This document shows, one piece after another, positions 13,666 through 63,487 of a stretch of 64,000 nucleotides of DNA. Origin of the DNA: Abyssibius alkaniclasticus (lineage in GTDB: Bacteria > Pseudomonadota > Alphaproteobacteria > Rhodobacterales > Rhodobacteraceae); contig NZ_CP095732.1 in NCBI RefSeq assembly GCF_020447305.1, positions 1,458,501 to 1,522,500 of the forward strand. The letters are read 5' to 3'. Made by a program: the position numbers and the translations under genes. The stretch's first letter is position 1, and the number at the start of each line of letters is the position of its first letter. The notes under the pieces were generated by a model. It was not told the DNA's origin and made no database searches. It saw nothing but the letters and a program-made list of their open reading frames with translations.

Positions 13666-13699
13666 GCCTCCGGCGGGGATATTTAAGAGCAAAAGATGG
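13666..13699 (+). repeat. Interspersed GGATATTT element, copy A (subtype 1)
   Basis: Begins GCCTCCGGCGGGGATATTT and continues AAGAGCAAAAGATGG. It lies 20 bp after the glpK stop. It is one of seven related elements in this window, and the first 19 bases are identical in copies A, B, D, E and F. Confidence 0.85.
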
Positions 13700-55825: not shown

Positions 55826-56803
55826 CTAGCTGCGCGCGCGCATCTGCCGTGGGTTCTGGCCGAATTTCGCCAAAAAGGCGTGGTTGAAGGCGGCGGGGCT
55901 GGAAAAGCCGCAGCGCAGCGCGATTTCGGCCATCGGATGCGCGGTGTCGCGCACAAGCCGGGCGGCGCTTTCCAGCCGCAGGTTGCGACAGGCCTGGCCG
56001 GGAGCCATGTTCAGGCTGCGCGCAAAGCGGGTTTCGAGCGCGCGGCGTGATACGCCCAGGCTTTGCGCGAGTTTGGTGACAGAAAGCGGCTCATCGAGCG
56101 CGGTCTCCATTGCATCGAGCGCGCGGGCGACCAGCGGGTCGCGGCGTTCAAGGCGGGCGCGGGCCATGAGCGGCTGGCGGTCGGCACCGCCGGCGGCGGA
56201 TTCATAGATGAACACACCCGCCACCTGTAGCGCCAGTGCCACGCCATAGCGGGCGCGGATCAGTTCCAGCATCATATCCATCGCGGGCGACGCACCACCG
56301 GCGGTGATGCGGTTATGGGTGATGACAAAGCGCGCGCCCTGCACATCGACCTCGGGATGGGCGGCGGCAAAGTCTTCAAGGTCTTCCCAATGGGTTGTTG
56401 CCTGCTGGCCAGACAGCAGCCCCGCGCGTGCCAGCACCCAGGTTCCGGCCTCGACCCCGCCGAGGCAGGCTAGGCGCGGCGCAAGCTGACGCAGCTGGCG
56501 CAAGATCGGGGCAGGCGCGTGGCGGGCCTGGTTGAAGCCGGAAATCACCAAAAGCAGATCGACCGCGCCAAGGGTTGCGAGGCTTCCGCCGCTGGCCACG
56601 TCCAGCCCGCATGTCAATGTGGCCGGCAGACCATCGGGCGTGACGATGCGCCAGGAAAACAGCGGGCGGCGGGCAAAGCGGTTGGCGGCGCGCATCGGGT
56701 CGAGTGTGCTGGCAAGCGACATCATCGAGCTTTCGGGCAGCAGCAGCAGGCCGACATGCAGCGGCTTTGCGCTGGGCTGGAAGATCATATTTGCGTGTTT
56801 CAT
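55826..56803 (-). CDS. GlxA family AraC-type regulator, probable carnitine catabolism regulator
   Basis: Two domains: an N-terminal DJ-1/PfpI-like sensor (VGLLLLPESSMMSLASTLDP, GGVEAGTWVLARAGLL) and a C-terminal AraC double helix-turn-helix (LSVTKLAQSLGVSRRALETR, MAEIALRCGFSSPAAFNHAF). 325 residues from the ATG at 56803. It is divergent from the BKACE gene that begins the carnitine-type operon. In Pseudomonas, CdhR, a GlxA-family protein, activates the carnitine genes from the same divergent position, so I infer the same role. The ligand is unproven. Confidence 0.85.
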   Translation of the reverse strand: MKHANMIFQPSAKPLHVGLLLLPESSMMSLASTLDPMRAANRFARRPLFSWRIVTPDGLPATLTCGLDVASGGSLATLGAVDLLLVISGFNQARHAPAPILRQLRQLAPRLACLGGVEAGTWVLARAGLLSGQQATTHWEDLEDFAAAHPEVDVQGARFVITHNRITAGGASPAMDMMLELIRARYGVALALQVAGVFIYESAAGGADRQPLMARARLERRDPLVARALDAMETALDEPLSVTKLAQSLGVSRRALETRFARSLNMAPGQACRNLRLESAARLVRDTAHPMAEIALRCGFSSPAAFNHAFLAKFGQNPRQMRARS

Positions 56804-56877
56804 CAATTTTCATGCGTAAAAGATAAATTGTTTTGCCGCAAGACCGCGATACTTGCCCCAGGAACCGGAGGAAGCCA

Positions 56878-57786
56878 ATGCCACTGTCCATGAACCAGGA
56901 AGTTTTCATCACCTGCGCTGTTACCGGCTCGGGATCGACCCAGGAGCGCAGCCCGCATGTGCCGCGCTCGCCCCAGCAAATTGCCGAAAGCGCGATTGCG
57001 GCGGCCAAGGCCGGGGCGGCAATTGTGCATTGCCATGTGCGCGACCCGGAAACCGGCAAGCCCAGCCGCGATCCGGCCATGTTCCGCGAAGTGACCGAGC
57101 GCATTCGCGACAGCGACACCGATGTTGTGCTGAACCTGACAGCGGGCATGGGCGGTGACATTGTGTTTGGCGATGTCGAACAGCCCCTGCCCACCGTGGC
57201 GGGCACCGATATGGCCGGTGCAACCGAGCGTGTGGCGCATGTGCTGGATTGCCGGCCCGAGATTTGCACGCTGGATTGCGGCACGATGAACTTCGCCGAG
57301 GCCGATTATGTGATGACCAACACGCCGGGAATGCTGCGCGCTATGGGCCGGATGATGACGGAGTCTGGCGTGCTGCCGGAAATCGAAGCCTTTGATACCG
57401 GGCATTTGTGGTTTGCCAAGCAGCTTGTGGCCGAGGGCATCTTGAAATTCCCGGCGCTTGTGCAGCTCTGCATGGGCGTGCCCTGGGGCGCACCGGATGA
57501 CCTCAACACCTTTATGGCGATGGTGAACAACGTGCCAGATGGCTGGAACTGGAGCGCCTTTTCGCTGGGCCGCAACCAGATGCCCTATGTCTCTGCCGCC
57601 GTTCTGGCCGGGGGCAATGTGCGCGTGGGGCTGGAAGATAACCTGTGGCTGGGCAAGGGCAACCTGGCCACCAATGCGCAGCTTGTCGAAAACGCGGTCG
57701 GGATAATCGAGCGCATGGGCGCACGGGTGATCGGGCCGGAAGCGGTGCGCGAAAAGCTGGGGCTGACCAAGCGGGCACCAGCATAA
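56878..57786 (+). CDS. cdhC: BKACE family 3-keto acid cleavage enzyme, probable 3-dehydrocarnitine:acetyl-CoA trimethylamine transferase
   Basis: Zinc enzyme of the beta-keto acid cleavage family (DUF849). Expected reaction here: 3-dehydrocarnitine plus acetyl-CoA gives betainyl-CoA plus acetoacetate. Metal histidines His51 and His53 in AAIVHCHVRDPETG; N-terminal ITCAVTGSGSTQERSPHVPR is typical. 302 residues from the ATG at 56878, preceded by GGAGGAA. The assignment to carnitine rests on the next gene (carnitine dehydrogenase fusion) and the GlxA-type neighbour; BKACE enzymes by themselves have many substrates. Confidence 0.85.
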   Translation: MPLSMNQEVFITCAVTGSGSTQERSPHVPRSPQQIAESAIAAAKAGAAIVHCHVRDPETGKPSRDPAMFREVTERIRDSDTDVVLNLTAGMGGDIVFGDVEQPLPTVAGTDMAGATERVAHVLDCRPEICTLDCGTMNFAEADYVMTNTPGMLRAMGRMMTESGVLPEIEAFDTGHLWFAKQLVAEGILKFPALVQLCMGVPWGAPDDLNTFMAMVNNVPDGWNWSAFSLGRNQMPYVSAAVLAGGNVRVGLEDNLWLGKGNLATNAQLVENAVGIIERMGARVIGPEAVREKLGLTKRAPA

Positions 57787-57836
57787 GACGGGTTTGATCC
57801 TGCGCGCATCATGCGCTGCATTTCCGGAGGCACGAT

Positions 57837-59282
57837 ATGACAAAAACGGCAGCAATCATCGGCGGCGGGGTTATTGGCGGCGGCTGGGCGGCGCGCTTCC
57901 TGCTGAATGGCTGGGATGTTCGGATTTCCGACCCCGACCCGGAAGCCGCACGCAAAATCGGCGAAGTGCTGGCCAATGCCCGCCGCAGCCTGCCCGCGCT
58001 GGCCGATGTGGCCATGCCGCCCGAAGGCAGGCTCAGCTTTGCCACCAGCATTGCCGAGGCGGTTGCGGGGGCGGATTGGGTGCAGGAATCGGTGCCGGAG
58101 CGGCTCGACATCAAGCACAGGGTGTTTGCCGAAATTCAGGCATATGCGCGCGCGGATGCGGTGATCGGCTCCTCCACCTCCGGCTTCAAGCCAAGCGAGT
58201 TGCAGCAGGGCGCGGCCCGGCCCGGGCAGATTTTTGTCTGCCATCCGTTCAACCCTGTCTACCTTCTGCCCTTGATCGAGGTTGTGGGCAGCGATGTGGC
58301 CGACCCGGCCATACGCCAGACCTGTGTTGATACCCTTGAAAAGCTTGGCATGAAGCCCCTGCTTGTGCGCAAGGAAATAGATGCGCATATCGCCGACCGT
58401 TTCCTTGAAGCCGTGTGGCGCGAGGCGCTGTGGCTCGTCAAGGACGGTATCGCCACGACCGAGGAAATCGACGACGCGATCCGCTTTGGCTTTGGTCTGC
58501 GCTGGGGGCAGATGGGCCTGTTTGAAACCTATCGCATTGCGGGTGGCGAGGCGGGGATGAAGCATTTCATCGCGCAATTCGGCCCCTGCCTGGCCTGGCC
58601 CTGGACCAAGCTGATGGATGTGCCTGAACTGACGGACGAGTTGGTGGAGACTCTGGCCAGCCAGTCAGATGCGCAATCGGGAATGCACTCTATCCGTGAA
58701 CTTGAGCGTATTCGCGATGACAATCTTGTCGGCATGATGCGCGCGCTCAAGCGCAACAATTGGGGCGCGGGCGCGCTTTTGGTCGCGCAGGACAGGCGTA
58801 TGGGGCGAACAGCGCCCGCGCTGGGCCTGGTCGAGACCCAAAACCGGCAGGTGCCGCAAAGCTGGACCGACTATAACGGCCATATGAACGAGGCGCATTA
58901 TCTGGAGGTTTTTGCCGCGGCCTCGGACCGGTTCATGGAAATCATCGGTGCCGATGCAGACTATATTGCCGCTGGCAACAGCTATTTCACCGCCGAGACC
59001 CATATTCGCCATATTGACGAGGTTCATGCGGGTGCGCGGGTGCGGGTCGAAACCCAGGTGCTGGCGGGTGCGGGCAAAAAGCTGCACCTGTTCCACAGTC
59101 TATTCGAAGGCGCGCGACTGCTGGCAACCGGCGAGCATTTGCTGCTGCATGTAAACCTGAACAGCCGCGCCACAAGCGAGCCTTTGCCGGACGTGGTTGC
59201 AAAACTGGCCGATTATGCCAAGGCCCATGCCACAATGCCGCGCCCCGAAGGGGCCGGGCGTGCCGTGGGCCAGAAGCCGTAG
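57837..59282 (+). CDS. cdhA: Fused L-carnitine 3-dehydrogenase and betainyl-CoA-type thioesterase
   Basis: 481 residues. Residues 1 to about 315 are a 3-hydroxyacyl-CoA-dehydrogenase-type NAD enzyme (IIGGGVIGGGWAARFLLNGW at 7-26; catalytic His136 in VCHPFNPVYLLPLIEV). About 335-481 form a hotdog-fold thioesterase (SWTDYNGHMNEAHYLEVF, Asp345; HLFHSLFEGARLLATGEHLL). Expected: oxidation of L-carnitine to 3-dehydrocarnitine, and hydrolysis of betainyl-CoA to glycine betaine. In Pseudomonas these are separate CdhA and CdhB proteins; fused carnitine dehydrogenases are, as far as I recall, known in rhizobia. GGAGG lies upstream. It follows the BKACE gene by 50 bp. Confidence 0.88.
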   Translation: MTKTAAIIGGGVIGGGWAARFLLNGWDVRISDPDPEAARKIGEVLANARRSLPALADVAMPPEGRLSFATSIAEAVAGADWVQESVPERLDIKHRVFAEIQAYARADAVIGSSTSGFKPSELQQGAARPGQIFVCHPFNPVYLLPLIEVVGSDVADPAIRQTCVDTLEKLGMKPLLVRKEIDAHIADRFLEAVWREALWLVKDGIATTEEIDDAIRFGFGLRWGQMGLFETYRIAGGEAGMKHFIAQFGPCLAWPWTKLMDVPELTDELVETLASQSDAQSGMHSIRELERIRDDNLVGMMRALKRNNWGAGALLVAQDRRMGRTAPALGLVETQNRQVPQSWTDYNGHMNEAHYLEVFAAASDRFMEIIGADADYIAAGNSYFTAETHIRHIDEVHAGARVRVETQVLAGAGKKLHLFHSLFEGARLLATGEHLLLHVNLNSRATSEPLPDVVAKLADYAKAHATMPRPEGAGRAVGQKP

Positions 59283-59297
59283 CATAAGGTAATCATT

Positions 59298-60461
59298 ATG
59301 GATTTCGGGCTGAGCGAAGAACAGCAGATGATTGTCGACACAACACGCGCCTTTGTGGAGCGCGAGCTTTACCCGCATGAGGCCGAGGTGGAGCGCACCG
59401 GCCATTTGCGTATGGAGCTTGTGCGCGAGATTCAGGCCAAGGCGATCGAGGCGGGGCTTTACGCCGCCAATATGCCCGAAGATGTGGGCGGCGCCGGGCT
59501 CGATACGCAAACATGGCTGCTCTATGAAAAAGAGCTGGGCCGCGCCAATTACGCGCTGCACTGGACATGCGTTGCCCGCCCGTCGAACATCCTGCTGGCC
59601 GGAACGCCGGAGCAGCGCGAGCGCTACCTTTTTCCCTGCATCCGCGGCGAGAAATGGGATTGTTTGGCAATGACCGAACCCGGCGCGGGCTCGGATTTGC
59701 GCGGCATGAAGGCCAGCGCAAAGGCCGATGGCGATGATTTCATCCTGAACGGCACAAAGCATTTCATCAGCCATGCCGATATCGCCGATTTCGCCATTGT
59801 GTTCATGGCGACCGGCGAAGAGCAAACCCCGCGCGGCCCGAAAAAGCGGATCACGGCATTCTTTGTCGACAAGGGCACGCCGGGGTTTGAGCTGCGCGAT
59901 GGCTATCGCAATGTCAGCCATCGCGGCTATACGAATGCGGTGTTGGAGTTCAATGACTGCCGACTGCCACAATCGGCCGTGCTGGGCGAGGTCCACAAGG
60001 GATTTGAGGTTGCCAATACATGGCTCGGGGCCACGCGCCTGCAGGTGGCGGCAACATGCCTTGGCCGCGCCGAACGCGCGCTGGGTTATGCCGTTGATTA
60101 TGCCGCAGAACGTGAACAATTCGGCCAGAAAATCGGCAAGTTTCAGGGCGTCTCCTTCAAGCTGGCCGATATGGCGATGGAACTCAAAGCCGCCGAGTTG
60201 CTGACACGAGAAGCCGCCTGGAAATTTGACCAGGGCACGGTAACGGAATCCGATATGTCGATGGCCAAGCTCAAAGCCACAGAGGTGCTGGCGATGGTGG
60301 CCGATGAGGCGATCCAGATCCACGGTGGCATGGGGCTGATGGATGACCTGCCGCTGGAACGCATCTGGCGCGACGCGCGGGTTGAACGGATCTGGGAGGG
60401 CACCAGCGAGATCCAGCGGCATATCATTTCACGCGAAATGCTGCGGGCACGCGGTGCATAA
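59298..60461 (+). CDS. Acyl-CoA dehydrogenase, possible gamma-butyrobetainyl-CoA/crotonobetainyl-CoA type
   Basis: FAD-dependent alpha,beta-dehydrogenation of an acyl-CoA. 387 residues with family signatures CLAMTEPGAGSDLRGMKASA, FGQKIGKFQGVSFKLADMAM, and the catalytic-Glu segment RIWEGTSEIQRHIISREML. It follows the carnitine dehydrogenase fusion by 15 bp, so it is in the same operon. In that setting it would convert gamma-butyrobetainyl-CoA to crotonobetainyl-CoA (the reverse of CaiA). A general short-chain role is the alternative. Element F and a terminator follow it. Confidence 0.85.
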   Translation: MDFGLSEEQQMIVDTTRAFVERELYPHEAEVERTGHLRMELVREIQAKAIEAGLYAANMPEDVGGAGLDTQTWLLYEKELGRANYALHWTCVARPSNILLAGTPEQRERYLFPCIRGEKWDCLAMTEPGAGSDLRGMKASAKADGDDFILNGTKHFISHADIADFAIVFMATGEEQTPRGPKKRITAFFVDKGTPGFELRDGYRNVSHRGYTNAVLEFNDCRLPQSAVLGEVHKGFEVANTWLGATRLQVAATCLGRAERALGYAVDYAAEREQFGQKIGKFQGVSFKLADMAMELKAAELLTREAAWKFDQGTVTESDMSMAKLKATEVLAMVADEAIQIHGGMGLMDDLPLERIWRDARVERIWEGTSEIQRHIISREMLRARGA

Positions 60462-60470
60462 AGTGATGAT

Positions 60471-60503
60471 GCCTCCGGCGGGGATATTTATGAGCAAAAG
60501 ATG
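60471..60503 (+). repeat. Interspersed GGATATTT element, copy F (subtype 1)
   Basis: GCCTCCGGCGGGGATATTT then ATGAGCAAAAGATG. It begins nine bases after the acyl-CoA dehydrogenase stop codon and faces copy G, 115 bp away in the opposite orientation. Confidence 0.85.
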
Positions 60504-60581
60504 TAACGGAATATTAACCATGTCTGGGCAGGCTGGCATGGCGGTACAGGCGGGGACGCCGATGACCGCAGCGAGAGATGG

Positions 60582-60617
60582 CACCCTGTTCCGGTTTTCG
60601 GGGCAGGGTGTTTTCTT
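60582..60617 (+). terminator. Rho-independent terminator after the acyl-CoA dehydrogenase gene
   Basis: CACCCTGTTCC (60582-60592), loop GGTTTTC, GGGGCAGGGTG (60600-60610): an 11 bp stem including two T:G pairs, followed by TTTTCTT. It would separate transcription of the cdh genes from the CoA-synthetase pair, unless read-through is regulated. Confidence 0.75.
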
Positions 60618-60618
60618 G

Positions 60619-60671
60619 CCCATCTTTTGCTTTGAAATATCCTCGGGGGTCCGGGGGCAGACAGCCCCCGG
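60619..60671 (-). repeat. Interspersed GGATATTT element, copy G (subtype 2, inverted)
   Basis: In minus orientation: hairpin CCGGGGGC-TGTCT-GCCCCCGG, then ACCCCCGAGGATATTT and CAAAGCAAAAGATGGG. It matches copy C in order and spacing, with a compensated change in the hairpin. It ends 18 bp before the CoA-synthetase start. Confidence 0.8.
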
Positions 60672-60689
60672 CTTGGAACCTGTCGTATC

Positions 60690-62705
60690 ATGACCTCTGC
60701 TTCACTGGCACGCCTGTTTCGCCCCCGCCACATAGCTGTCTTTGGCGGCGGCTGGGCGGAAAACGTTGTTACGCAATGCCGCAAAATGGGGTTTTCGGGC
60801 AAGGTTTGGCCTGTTCATCCGACACGTGTTGACATTGGCGGGGCGGCGACTTTTCGAACGCTGGCAGATTTACCCGAAGCGCCCGATGCTGTGTTTCTGG
60901 GTGTCAACCGCCATGCAAGCATCGAAATTGTGCGTGAATTGGCGGGTATGGGTGCGGGCGGTGTTATCTGCTTTGCCTCGGGTTTTACCGAAACGGGTGA
61001 TGCCGATTTGCAGGCAGAACTGGTTGCCGCAGCGGGTGATATGCCGCTTTTGGGGCCGAATTGCTATGGGGTGATTAATTATCTTGATGGCGCATTGCTA
61101 TGGCCCGATCAGCATGGCGGGCAGCGGGTTTCGCGCGGCGTTGCGCTGATCTCCCAAAGCTCGAACATCGTCATCAATCTTACAATGCAGACGCGCGGGC
61201 TGCCTTTGGCCTATATCGCTTGCGTGGGCAATGCGGCGCAAACCGGAATGGCGGCCATTGCCGATGGGCTATTGGATGATGCCCGCGTGACCGCCATTGG
61301 CTTTTACATCGAAGGTATTGGCGATGCGGAGGCGTTTTATGCAATGGCAGCGCGGGCGCGGGCGCTGGGCAAGCCGCTTGTGGCGGTAAAATCCGGCAAA
61401 TCGCCAATGGCGCAGGCGGCGGCAGCAAGCCATACCGCAGCACTTGCCGGGGGCGGGGCGGCGAGTTCGGCATTTCTGCAGGCGTGCGGTGTGGCCGAAG
61501 TGGATGAGCTTGATGTCATGCTTGAAACGCTCAAGCTGCTGCATATGTTCGGCCCCTTGCCGGGGCCACGGCTGGCCTCGCTCTCTTGTTCGGGTGGCGA
61601 GGCTGGCCTTGTCGCCGACCTTTGCCGCGATCTGGAGCTGGATCTGCCATATCCGGAAACCGCTGTTGCGCTGCGCGAAATTCTTGGCCCGCTGCCCACC
61701 ATCTCCAACCCGCTTGATTATCACACATTCATCTGGGGCGATGGTGCGCGGATGCAGGCAACCTATGCCACCATGATGCAGGGCGGGTATGATGCTGCAA
61801 TGCTGGTCATCGATTTCCCCCATGTGGCCCGCTGTTCGCTGGAGGCCTGGGAGCCAGCGGTCGAGGCCTGGGTCGCCGCGGCGCAGCAAACCGGCGTGCC
61901 TGCCCTTGCCGTGGCGAGCTTGCCCGAGAATTTGCCGGAAGCGCGCGCACAGGCGCTTATGGCGGCAGGTGTTGCGCCCTTGCACGGGCTGCGCGCCGCA
62001 TTGAAGGCAATTGCCGCCGCGGCCGCAATTGGCGCATTTGCGCGGCCAGAAACATGGCGCCCGATTGCGCCTTTGCCCGCAGCGCCGCTGCATTTGGTGG
62101 ATGAGGCGGGTGCCAAGGCGATGCTGGCGCGCGCGTCTGTGGCGGTGCCACGGGGCGTGGTGGTGCGGGATTGCGCCTTTGGCGCGGCAGGCGCATTGCA
62201 GGGCCGTTTGGCGCTGAAGGGTCTGGGGCTGGCGCATAAATCCGAGGCGGGCGCCGTGAAGCTGGGCCTGATGCCTTCGGAACTGCCAGATGCCGCCCGC
62301 GAAATGCCCGGTCAATTGTTTCTGGTTGAGGAGATGGTCGACGGCGCGGTGGCCGAATTGCTGGTGGGGCTACGGCGCGATGCGGTTTATGGCGCCACGC
62401 TCACCCTTGGCATGGGTGGCACGGCAGCGGAATTGCTGGGCGATACGCAAACACTTATACTGCCATGCGCGCGGGATGATATGCGCGCAGCGCTTGGCCG
62501 TCTGCGGCTTGCCCCATTGCTGCACGGCTATCGTGGCCGCCCGCGTGCTGATGTTGAAGCGGCGCTTGATGCGGTGCAGGCTATGGCAGAGCTGCTGCTG
62601 CATGATACGCGTATCGAAGAAATTGAGGTCAATCCGCTGATGCTGCGCGCCCAGGGCGCGGTTGCCGCGGATGCGGTTATCTGGACACGACAGGAGGCGA
62701 CATGA
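60690..62705 (+). CDS. ADP-forming acyl-CoA synthetase (acetate--CoA ligase family)
   Basis: Single-chain ADP-forming ligase, 671 residues. Residues 1 to about 130 are the CoA-binding domain (HIAVFGGGWAENVVTQCRKM). Two succinyl-CoA-ligase-like domains follow, with the phosphohistidine His248 in AASHTAALAGG. The C-terminal third is an ATP-grasp domain (GLGLAHKSEAGAVKLGL, FLVEEMVDGAVAELLVGLRR, IEEIEVNPLML). The ATG at 60690 matches the family. It overlaps the CaiD-like gene by 4 bp. By context it may activate gamma-butyrobetaine, crotonobetaine or carnitine to the CoA ester, a job done by AMP-forming CaiC in enterics. Confidence 0.87.
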   Translation: MTSASLARLFRPRHIAVFGGGWAENVVTQCRKMGFSGKVWPVHPTRVDIGGAATFRTLADLPEAPDAVFLGVNRHASIEIVRELAGMGAGGVICFASGFTETGDADLQAELVAAAGDMPLLGPNCYGVINYLDGALLWPDQHGGQRVSRGVALISQSSNIVINLTMQTRGLPLAYIACVGNAAQTGMAAIADGLLDDARVTAIGFYIEGIGDAEAFYAMAARARALGKPLVAVKSGKSPMAQAAAASHTAALAGGGAASSAFLQACGVAEVDELDVMLETLKLLHMFGPLPGPRLASLSCSGGEAGLVADLCRDLELDLPYPETAVALREILGPLPTISNPLDYHTFIWGDGARMQATYATMMQGGYDAAMLVIDFPHVARCSLEAWEPAVEAWVAAAQQTGVPALAVASLPENLPEARAQALMAAGVAPLHGLRAALKAIAAAAAIGAFARPETWRPIAPLPAAPLHLVDEAGAKAMLARASVAVPRGVVVRDCAFGAAGALQGRLALKGLGLAHKSEAGAVKLGLMPSELPDAAREMPGQLFLVEEMVDGAVAELLVGLRRDAVYGATLTLGMGGTAAELLGDTQTLILPCARDDMRAALGRLRLAPLLHGYRGRPRADVEAALDAVQAMAELLLHDTRIEEIEVNPLMLRAQGAVAADAVIWTRQEAT

Positions 62706-63487
62706 GTGATTCCCCCATCAAAACCCGGCGCGAGGGTGGCATATTAGAGGTGACGCTTGACCGCCCCAAAGCCAATGCGATTGATCTGCATACCAGCCGT
62801 ATCATGGGCAAGACCTTTATGGCGTTTCGCGACGATCCAGAGCTTCGCGTGGCCATTTTGCGCGCCGAGGGTGAGAAATTTTTCTGCCCCGGATGGGATT
62901 TGAAGGCGGCAGCCACCGGCGATGCCGTGGATGGCGATTATGGCATTGGCGGGTTCGGCGGGCTGCAGGAGCTTGGCAATTTGAACAAGCCGGTCATCGC
63001 GGCCGTGAATGGCATTTGCTGCGGTGGCGGGCTGGAGCTGGCGCTGAGCTGCGACCTTATACTTGCCACGGATAGCGCAACATTCGCACTGCCCGAAATC
63101 CGCTCGGGCACGGTGGCCGATGCCGCCAGCATCAAGCTGCCAAAGCGCATTCCCTACCATGTGGCGATGGACCTGCTGCTGACCGGGCGCTGGTTTGATG
63201 CCGAGGAAGCCTTGCGCTGGGGCCTGCTGAAAGAGATCACCAGCCAGGCAGATTTGCTGCCAAAAGCCTGGGCGCTTGCGCGCCTGCTCGAAAGCGGGCC
63301 GCCGCTGGTTTATGCCGCGATAAAAGAGGTGGTGCGCGAGGCCGAGGATATGAAGTTTCAGGACGCGCTCAACCGTATATCCAAGCGGCAGTTTGCGACC
63401 GTCGACCGGCTTTATGGCTCGCAAGACCAGTTGGAAGGCGCGCGCGCCTTTGCCGAAAAACGCGACCCTGTCTGGCGGGGCTGCTAG
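62702..63487 (+). CDS. caiD: Enoyl-CoA hydratase/isomerase family protein, carnitinyl-CoA dehydratase-like
   Basis: Crotonase-fold enzyme, 261 residues, the same length as E. coli CaiD. The oxyanion-hole segment is EKFFCPGWDLKAAA and the core is NGICCGGGLELALSCDLILA; catalytic Glu candidates are in FALPEIRSGTVAD. YGIGGFGGLQELGNLNKPVI resembles the CaiD loop. Expected reaction: crotonobetainyl-CoA plus water to L-carnitinyl-CoA. Starts in the stop codon of the CoA-synthetase gene (ATGA). The carnitine assignment depends on the neighbouring cdh genes; a general enoyl-CoA hydratase is the alternative. Confidence 0.8.
   Translation: MSDSPIKTRREGGILEVTLDRPKANAIDLHTSRIMGKTFMAFRDDPELRVAILRAEGEKFFCPGWDLKAAATGDAVDGDYGIGGFGGLQELGNLNKPVIAAVNGICCGGGLELALSCDLILATDSATFALPEIRSGTVADAASIKLPKRIPYHVAMDLLLTGRWFDAEEALRWGLLKEITSQADLLPKAWALARLLESGPPLVYAAIKEVVREAEDMKFQDALNRISKRQFATVDRLYGSQDQLEGARAFAEKRDPVWRGC

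Follow-up and report, generated by a model that had tools for sequence, protein, structure and literature searches.

Can a single gene cluster of Abyssibius alkaniclasticus take gamma-butyrobetaine, by way of carnitine, to glycine betaine, and is its version of the route a new one? We studied a stretch of 64,000 nucleotides of this genome (contig NZ_CP095732.1, positions 1,458,501 to 1,522,500; hereafter the window), which contains six adjacent genes: a GlxA-type regulator, BKACE, a carnitine 3-dehydrogenase (CDH) fused to a thioesterase, an acyl-CoA dehydrogenase, an ADP-forming acyl-CoA synthetase (the ligase) and a CaiD-like hydratase. The first-pass annotation of this DNA had put these genes together into a possible complete route that would be a distinct version of the known clusters. 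Judging from the sequences, we hold with considerable confidence that the cluster is a Sinorhizobium-type operon for the aerobic catabolism of gamma-butyrobetaine and carnitine. It very probably encodes a real, complete pathway, and the gene set with its ADP-forming ligase is common in the group. Gene content, gene order, co-conservation and retained motifs were observed directly, and from these we infer all the substrate assignments.

In the proposed pathway the ligase would convert gamma-butyrobetaine, ATP and CoA, via a phosphohistidine, to gamma-butyrobetainyl-CoA (step 1), which the flavin acyl-CoA dehydrogenase would oxidize to crotonobetainyl-CoA (step 2) and the CaiD-like hydratase would turn into L-carnitinyl-CoA (step 3). 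Next, a thioesterase (in all likelihood the hotdog domain fused to CDH) would set L-carnitine free (step 4) and CDH would convert it to 3-dehydrocarnitine (step 5), the step at which free carnitine would enter. With acetyl-CoA, BKACE would transform 3-dehydrocarnitine into betainyl-CoA and acetoacetate (step 6), and the thioesterase domain would yield glycine betaine from betainyl-CoA (step 7).

Families of the six proteins

The six open reading frames (ORFs) proposed at 55826-63487 were borne out by the ORF list, and their families proved right in outline when domains were taken from Pfam and NCBIfam calls were judged against the curated model cut-offs. Among the six proteins, the CDH fusion alone cleared any such cut-off (NF005716, carnitine 3-dehydrogenase, 777.9 bits vs 592). 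This single protein holds the domains 3HCDH_N, 3HCDH and 4HBT_2, and it keeps the segments HPFNP and PLIEVV and, in its hotdog thioesterase domain, DYNGHMN, which we take to have roles in the CDH and thioesterase activities. The nearest solved chain to BKACE by sequence was 3c6c; the HCH and LED of its HCHVRDP and VGLED motifs are presumably catalytic. The hydratase has the Pfam domain ECH_1 and contains the segments GGGLELA and ALPE, each with one expected Glu, and we assume that these two residues have their customary role.

For the acyl-CoA dehydrogenase the family assignment stood, and the best solved relatives were short-chain acyl-CoA dehydrogenases; the CaiA model was outscored by the acryloyl-CoA reductase model, the top NCBIfam match (294.2 vs 188 bits), which itself stayed under its cut-off of 640. 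The protein, proposed to be BcoD-like, contains the segment WEGTSEIQR, assumed here to hold the usual Glu base. Motifs expected of active enzymes were thus found in CDH, the thioesterase domain, BKACE, the dehydrogenase, the hydratase and the ligase (see below). The GlxA-type protein, with DJ-1_PfpI and HTH_18 domains and GbdR as its best NCBIfam model (217 bits, under the cut-off of 480), is likely an inducer-responsive regulator.

Conservation of the gene set

Loci containing related ligases were compared in two samples. The named loci are the best 80 of at least 592 relatives; they lean to close relatives, and the search patterns select the NPLDYHT stretch. Fifty-nine of the 80 were fully flanked, i.e., with at least 6.5 kb upstream and at least 2 kb downstream. 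The dehydrogenase and the CaiD-like hydratase accompanied the ligase in 59 of these 59 loci, CDH in 43, BKACE in 42 and GlxA in 45; the five enzyme genes occurred together in 42 loci and all six genes, including GlxA, in 39. Named records with the same gene order include Rhizobium lentis p3 and Neorhizobium pNCHU2750a; loci L003 and L004 have this order.

A class-wide draw of 241 genomes, a less biased sample, gave the ligase in 25 genomes (E up to 1e-90) and CDH in 43 (E up to 1e-60). A CDH match was found in 24 of the 25 ligase genomes, as compared with 43 of 241 overall (Fisher p 2.5e-20). In three of those 24 (G027, G128 and G133) CDH reached only 42-43% identity; at 44% identity or more the counts were 21 of 25 versus 31 of 241 (p 5.6e-19). 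Beyond the window, the draw held 26 ligase places, 16 of them with the dehydrogenase (at least 50% identity) and the hydratase (at least 43%) in the fetched stretch, and 9 with CDH (at least 39%). A chance neighbourhood is excluded because of the synteny in other genomes and the co-occurrence with CDH in 24 of 25 ligase genomes. That the six genes are conserved together, as the first-pass annotation had suggested checking, was strongly borne out by the named loci, by the synteny in other genomes and by a Sinorhizobium meliloti-like genome (see below). One genome carried a second, diverged cluster (L050, G064:C45:1-16000) with BKACE, GlxA, CDH, CaiD, dehydrogenase and ligase at 34-56% identity in another arrangement.

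In the Ruegeria pomeroyi megaplasmid, GlxA, the dehydrogenase, a DJ-1/PfpI protein and CaiD lie within 10 kb of the ligase, so that the trio of ligase, dehydrogenase and hydratase is present, with no CDH or BKACE in that distance. This arrangement, like the lack of linkage between ligase and CDH in several genomes, would suit an alternative in which the trio serves another acid (crotonobetaine or D-carnitine salvage, another betaine or a short-chain acid) while CDH and BKACE alone act on carnitine; ligase and hydratase would suffice for crotonobetaine or D-carnitine. The dehydrogenase, however, is needed for a saturated acid only, and it was kept in every fully flanked locus and retains the Glu base segment in the window. 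Its product would moreover pass via the CaiD-like enzyme to the carnitine genes, and CDH matches were present in all the ligase genomes of the class draw except one. We therefore regard this alternative as improbable.

The ligase

The ligase has the CoA-binding, succinyl-CoA-ligase-like and ATP-grasp domains (Pfam CoA_binding_2, Succ_CoA_lig and ATP-grasp_5) and the phosphohistidine of an ADP-forming acyl-CoA synthetase, and it keeps the SHT and HK segments. Its residues were followed in a MAFFT alignment of 111 sequences, 93 of them encoded beside a dehydrogenase/hydratase pair (within 3.5 kb) and 18 not. Seven of these 18, cut by a contig end, were kept apart, leaving 11 labelled as being without the pair; among the 11, L051 has both genes, the hydratase slightly past 3.5 kb, and L053 has CDH and the dehydrogenase with no hydratase. 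The set of 93 holds one locus twice (L134 and L175, from the same genome).

The best solved relative, both by sequence and by profile, was DddX (PDB 7cm9), with a fold Z of 38.2 over 652 residues (root-mean-square deviation 3.0, 24% identity), tied with the 4-hydroxybutyrate-CoA ligase 8wzu (Z 37.8 over 579 residues, deviation 3.5). As described in the available passages of PMC8163506, DddX activates dimethylsulfoniopropionate (DMSP), an onium acid; Trp391 and Phe435 are its cation-pi residues, His292 is the phosphohistidine and Glu432 serves the elimination. In the MAFFT alignment H248 of the window ligase corresponds to His292, W349 to Trp391 and W387 to Phe435. H248 and H516 were present in 111 of 111 sequences, the window included, and the position of W349 was likewise Trp in all 111. 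The position of W387 was aromatic (W, Y or F) in 92 of the 93 ligases beside the pair, in the seven cut by contig ends and in 7 of the 11 labelled without the pair. The two other kinds of ligase that cover this loop in the profile alignment, 8wzu (NPVDIVG) and PatZ (NPLDLRD), have no Trp directly after the NP.D motif. The counterpart of Glu432 was not conserved: at column 384 Glu was outside the eight commonest letters of the 93 sequences (Asp in 18), and at the neighbouring candidate column 385 Glu stood in 9 of 93. Since H248, W349 and W387 are kept and the elimination Glu is not, the residue pattern fits a putative onium-acid ligase that does not eliminate. Eight same-subfamily ligases of 34-41% identity (L046, L047, L048, L049 and L054-L057), without a nearby pair, also kept the invariant Trp.

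What the window ligase shares with DddX is the ADP-forming synthetase fold, the phosphohistidine and, in the MAFFT alignment, a loop Trp near the onium site. Since DddX ranks first by sequence and shares first place by fold, and since a Trp lies in the matching loop, the ligase might be read as a DMSP lyase of the DddX kind, with the cluster partly serving DMSP. DddX is nevertheless very distant (an end branch of 5.74 in the ligase tree, besides the low identity), its fold score ties with that of 8wzu, and the neighbours of the window ligase are carnitine genes. We consider this reading highly improbable, and a lyase was rejected on the lack of conservation of Glu432 among the 93 ligases.

In the ligase tree, whose support values come from a quick method with no bootstrap, the window ligase and that of the S. 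meliloti-like genome fell in one 36-row set (SH-aLRT 94), and none of the 11 rows labelled as being without the pair was in it. The AlphaFold model of the ligase had a mean pLDDT of 88.1; the phosphohistidine loop (247-253) was its sole stretch of three or more residues below 50, as would suit a mobile segment.

Release of the CoA esters

Step 4, the release of carnitine from carnitinyl-CoA, is the weak link of the earlier proposal because it named no separate carnitinyl-CoA thioesterase. Steps 4 and 7 could most simply be assigned to the hotdog domain fused to CDH. A hidden Markov model built from CDH-fused domains (E up to 1e-3, open stretches of at least 70 codons) found no CDH-type thioesterase in the fetched DNA of 10 of the 43 fully flanked CDH-containing loci, nine from Mesorhizobium/Aminobacter and one from Thioglobus (L094, L102, L106, L115, L121, L126, L131, L133, L139 and L148). 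Pfam gave no 4HBT domain in the three CDHs checked, those of L102, L042 and L121. In L102 and L131 an Abhydrolase_3 gene follows CaiD.

Synthetases of the ADP-forming type are generally reversible. In the 10 of 43 loci whose fetched DNA showed no thioesterase of the CDH type, product release might therefore fall to a reversible ligase; either the reversed ligase or a thioesterase encoded elsewhere would be a solution. A variant nested within the proposed pathway extends this to the discharge of carnitinyl-CoA and betainyl-CoA in general, mainly by the reversed ligase with recovery of ATP and not by a thioesterase. The thioesterase-less loci, the three CDHs without 4HBT and the lack of CaiB in the cluster all speak for it. 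The CDH of the window, however, has an intact hotdog motif, and the genomes of those loci may have thioesterases of other families or at other sites (compare the Abhydrolase_3 genes mentioned above); we judge the variant unlikely. Equally speculative, and doubtful to the same degree, is the idea of the ligase as a bidirectional CoA handler for trimethylammonium acids, which activates gamma-butyrobetaine and regains ATP from carnitinyl-CoA and betainyl-CoA. If true, one reversible ligase would cover the work of CaiC and CaiB, and the thioesterase would be dispensable, as in the Mesorhizobium/Aminobacter clusters without a CDH thioesterase.

Relation to the Sinorhizobium meliloti pathway and other known systems

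When a family draw of 297 genomes was compared with 4,001 bases of S. meliloti 1021 pSymB, one genome (G500) matched this stretch over its full length at 96%; G500 therefore probably belongs to S. meliloti or to a sister species. The ligase locus of G500 (L173) has all six genes in the order of the window, with GlxA divergent. Identities to the window were 50% for the ligase, 67% for the dehydrogenase, 77% for the hydratase, 60% for CDH, 43% for the thioesterase domain and 74% for BKACE; the S. meliloti pathway and that of the window differ in sequence divergence, among other things. The ligase was found in 33 of 33 genomes of the genus of G500 (in G566 cut short by a contig end). The full S. 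meliloti route, in which five enzymes take gamma-butyrobetaine to glycine betaine in seven steps, was reportedly described by Bazire et al. in 2019, with Perret among the authors. According to the available passages of PMC8364193, gamma-butyrobetainyl-CoA was prepared in vitro from ATP, Mg and CoA by means of the gamma-butyrobetaine:CoA ligase BcoAB of S. meliloti, whose plasmid A. Perret had provided.

Clusters of this kind, with an ADP-forming ligase, are common in Rhodobacterales and Rhizobiales, and S. meliloti-like genomes have them too. The route remains the best reading of the co-conserved genes; the claim that it is a distinct version, unlike known clusters, is ruled out by the synteny in the named loci and in the S. 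meliloti-like genome, because the same gene set is common in relatives and BcoAB is already in laboratory use. The gene set occurs together in many marine and plant-associated relatives, and is real but ordinary.

Other systems resemble the window in part. The GlxA-type regulator CdhR and the enzymes CdhABC belong to carnitine catabolism in Pseudomonas. The Pseudomonas pathway shares carnitine dehydrogenase and BKACE with the window, and DhcAB is named for its last step; unlike the window, the set as described in the available part of PMC12482172 has no ligase/dehydrogenase/hydratase arm. The enteric cai operon (CaiTABCDE) resembles the cluster in its CaiD-like hydratase and in having an acyl-CoA dehydrogenase for the same CoA esters. 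It differs in its AMP-forming CaiC and CoA-transferase CaiB, both absent from the window cluster, in the proposed oxidative direction of the window pathway, and in that the window proteins miss the CaiA and CaiD equivalog cut-offs. For the Lonza strain HK4, bco gene names are presumably in use. This Rhizobium/Agrobacterium-type bacterium, compared here by description and not by sequence, converts gamma-butyrobetaine to L-carnitine in a way likened to fatty acid degradation and also grows on carnitine (PMC2131755, available passages). An Arctic SAR11 island, in the passages available from PMC12421898, likewise combines CDH and BKACE, and has a gamma-butyrobetaine dioxygenase (BBOX) in place of the CoA-ester route.

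Several observations weigh against a catabolic operon of the Sinorhizobium type. The ligase scored below the acetate-CoA ligase alpha cut-off (TIGR02717, 191.7 bits vs 567.15), the dehydrogenase below that of CaiA (NF002885, 188 vs 540) and the hydratase below that of CaiD (NF002936, 303.9 vs 500), though this was its top model. W349 was equally kept in 11 of 11 ligases labelled as being without the dehydrogenase/hydratase pair, and the Trp pair was for this reason rejected as a marker specific for gamma-butyrobetaine ligases; the pairing of W349 with Trp391 depends on the aligner, being given by phmmer and MAFFT and not by the profile alignment, in which the loop falls differently. Seven pair-adjacent ligases (L037, L041, L042, L044, L045, L050 and L137) also fell outside the 36-row set of the tree. 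In the three other same-family genomes of the class draw (G018, G131 and G212) CDH and BKACE were distant from the trio or on other contigs, and the two halves of the pathway can thus be separate. Because of these genomes and R. pomeroyi, in close relatives the trio is a fixed unit and CDH/BKACE a frequent neighbour. The family of BcoAB is not named in the open literature, as far as the available listings and passages go, and we infer from synteny that it is probably the counterpart of this ADP-forming ligase. Finally, a BBOX dioxygenase route for gamma-butyrobetaine is conceivable in this genome.

Layout of the cluster and the rest of the genome

The five enzyme genes run in one direction and the regulator in the other, and the ligase and hydratase genes overlap by 4 nt (Table 1). 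The regulator could start at an ATG at 56803 or a TTG at 56806, and BKACE has a possible upstream TTG start at 56833. The gene directly after CaiD is MsrB in the window, as against ABC-transporter genes in Rhizobium lentis. Third-position GC of the ligase gene was 0.64, compared with 0.72-0.78 in its operon neighbours.

Table 1 Features of the proposed gamma-butyrobetaine/carnitine cluster (positions in the window)
Feature	Position	Strand	Remarks and evidence
GlxA-type regulator (DJ-1/PfpI + AraC HTH)	55826..56806	-	divergent from operon; ORF list, Pfam, NCBIfam
BKACE	56878..57786	+	Pfam BKACE 341.1 bits; HCHVRDP and VGLED motifs
Carnitine 3-dehydrogenase (CDH) fused to 4HBT_2 (hotdog) thioesterase	57837..59282	+	NF005716, Pfam
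Acyl-CoA dehydrogenase, proposed gamma-butyrobetainyl-CoA dehydrogenase	59298..60461	+	Pfam Acyl-CoA_dh N/M/C
Dispersed repeat / stable hairpin in dehydrogenase-ligase gap	60473..60655 (outer limits approximate)	+	folding, repeat counts
ADP-forming acyl-CoA synthetase (alpha and beta parts fused), proposed BcoAB-like gamma-butyrobetaine:CoA ligase	60690..62705	+	Pfam; DddX match
CaiD-like crotonobetainyl-CoA hydratase	62702..63487	+	NF002936 top NCBIfam model, below cut-off

The gap between dehydrogenase and ligase (60462-60689, 228 nt) folds into an unusually stable structure (z-score -7.2). In most related loci this gap is shorter than 100 nt; it measures about 490 nt in L034, and about 210 and 237 nt in two loci of the genus Sinorhizobium, L173 and L176. 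The gap contains, at 60473 inside the operon and ahead of the ligase, one of five window copies of the element CTCCGGCGGGGATATTT, all on the positive strand (the others at 13668, 17266, 26486 and 55795), where 0.03 were expected. Followed by an AGCAAAA tail, the element occurred at 25 places in the genome, versus none for a reversed control. Because four of the five window copies begin 12-25 nt past the stop of a positive-strand ORF, the element suggests a terminator-like dispersed repeat. No Rfam family matched the window between 55000 and 64000 at E up to 0.1.

The absence of a CaiB-type CoA transferase, claimed at first pass, holds for the cluster and not for the genome, which has two PF02515 (CaiB-family) genes, at 2138743 and 447382. 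The former was below the cut-off of all seven NCBIfam models listed for it (best formyl-CoA transferase, 196 vs 442; CaiB model, 118.2 vs 413). The genome also encodes one OpuAC protein, which TIGR03414 places with the choline-type binding proteins, and one S-methyl_trans (PF02574) gene at 2517358.

Implications

The results suggest that a ligase of this kind beside a dehydrogenase and a CaiD-like hydratase is a useful marker of the route, public records often naming the ligase "acetate--CoA ligase". With A. alkaniclasticus, one more bacterium can probably take a trimethylammonium acid to the osmolyte glycine betaine without release of trimethylamine.

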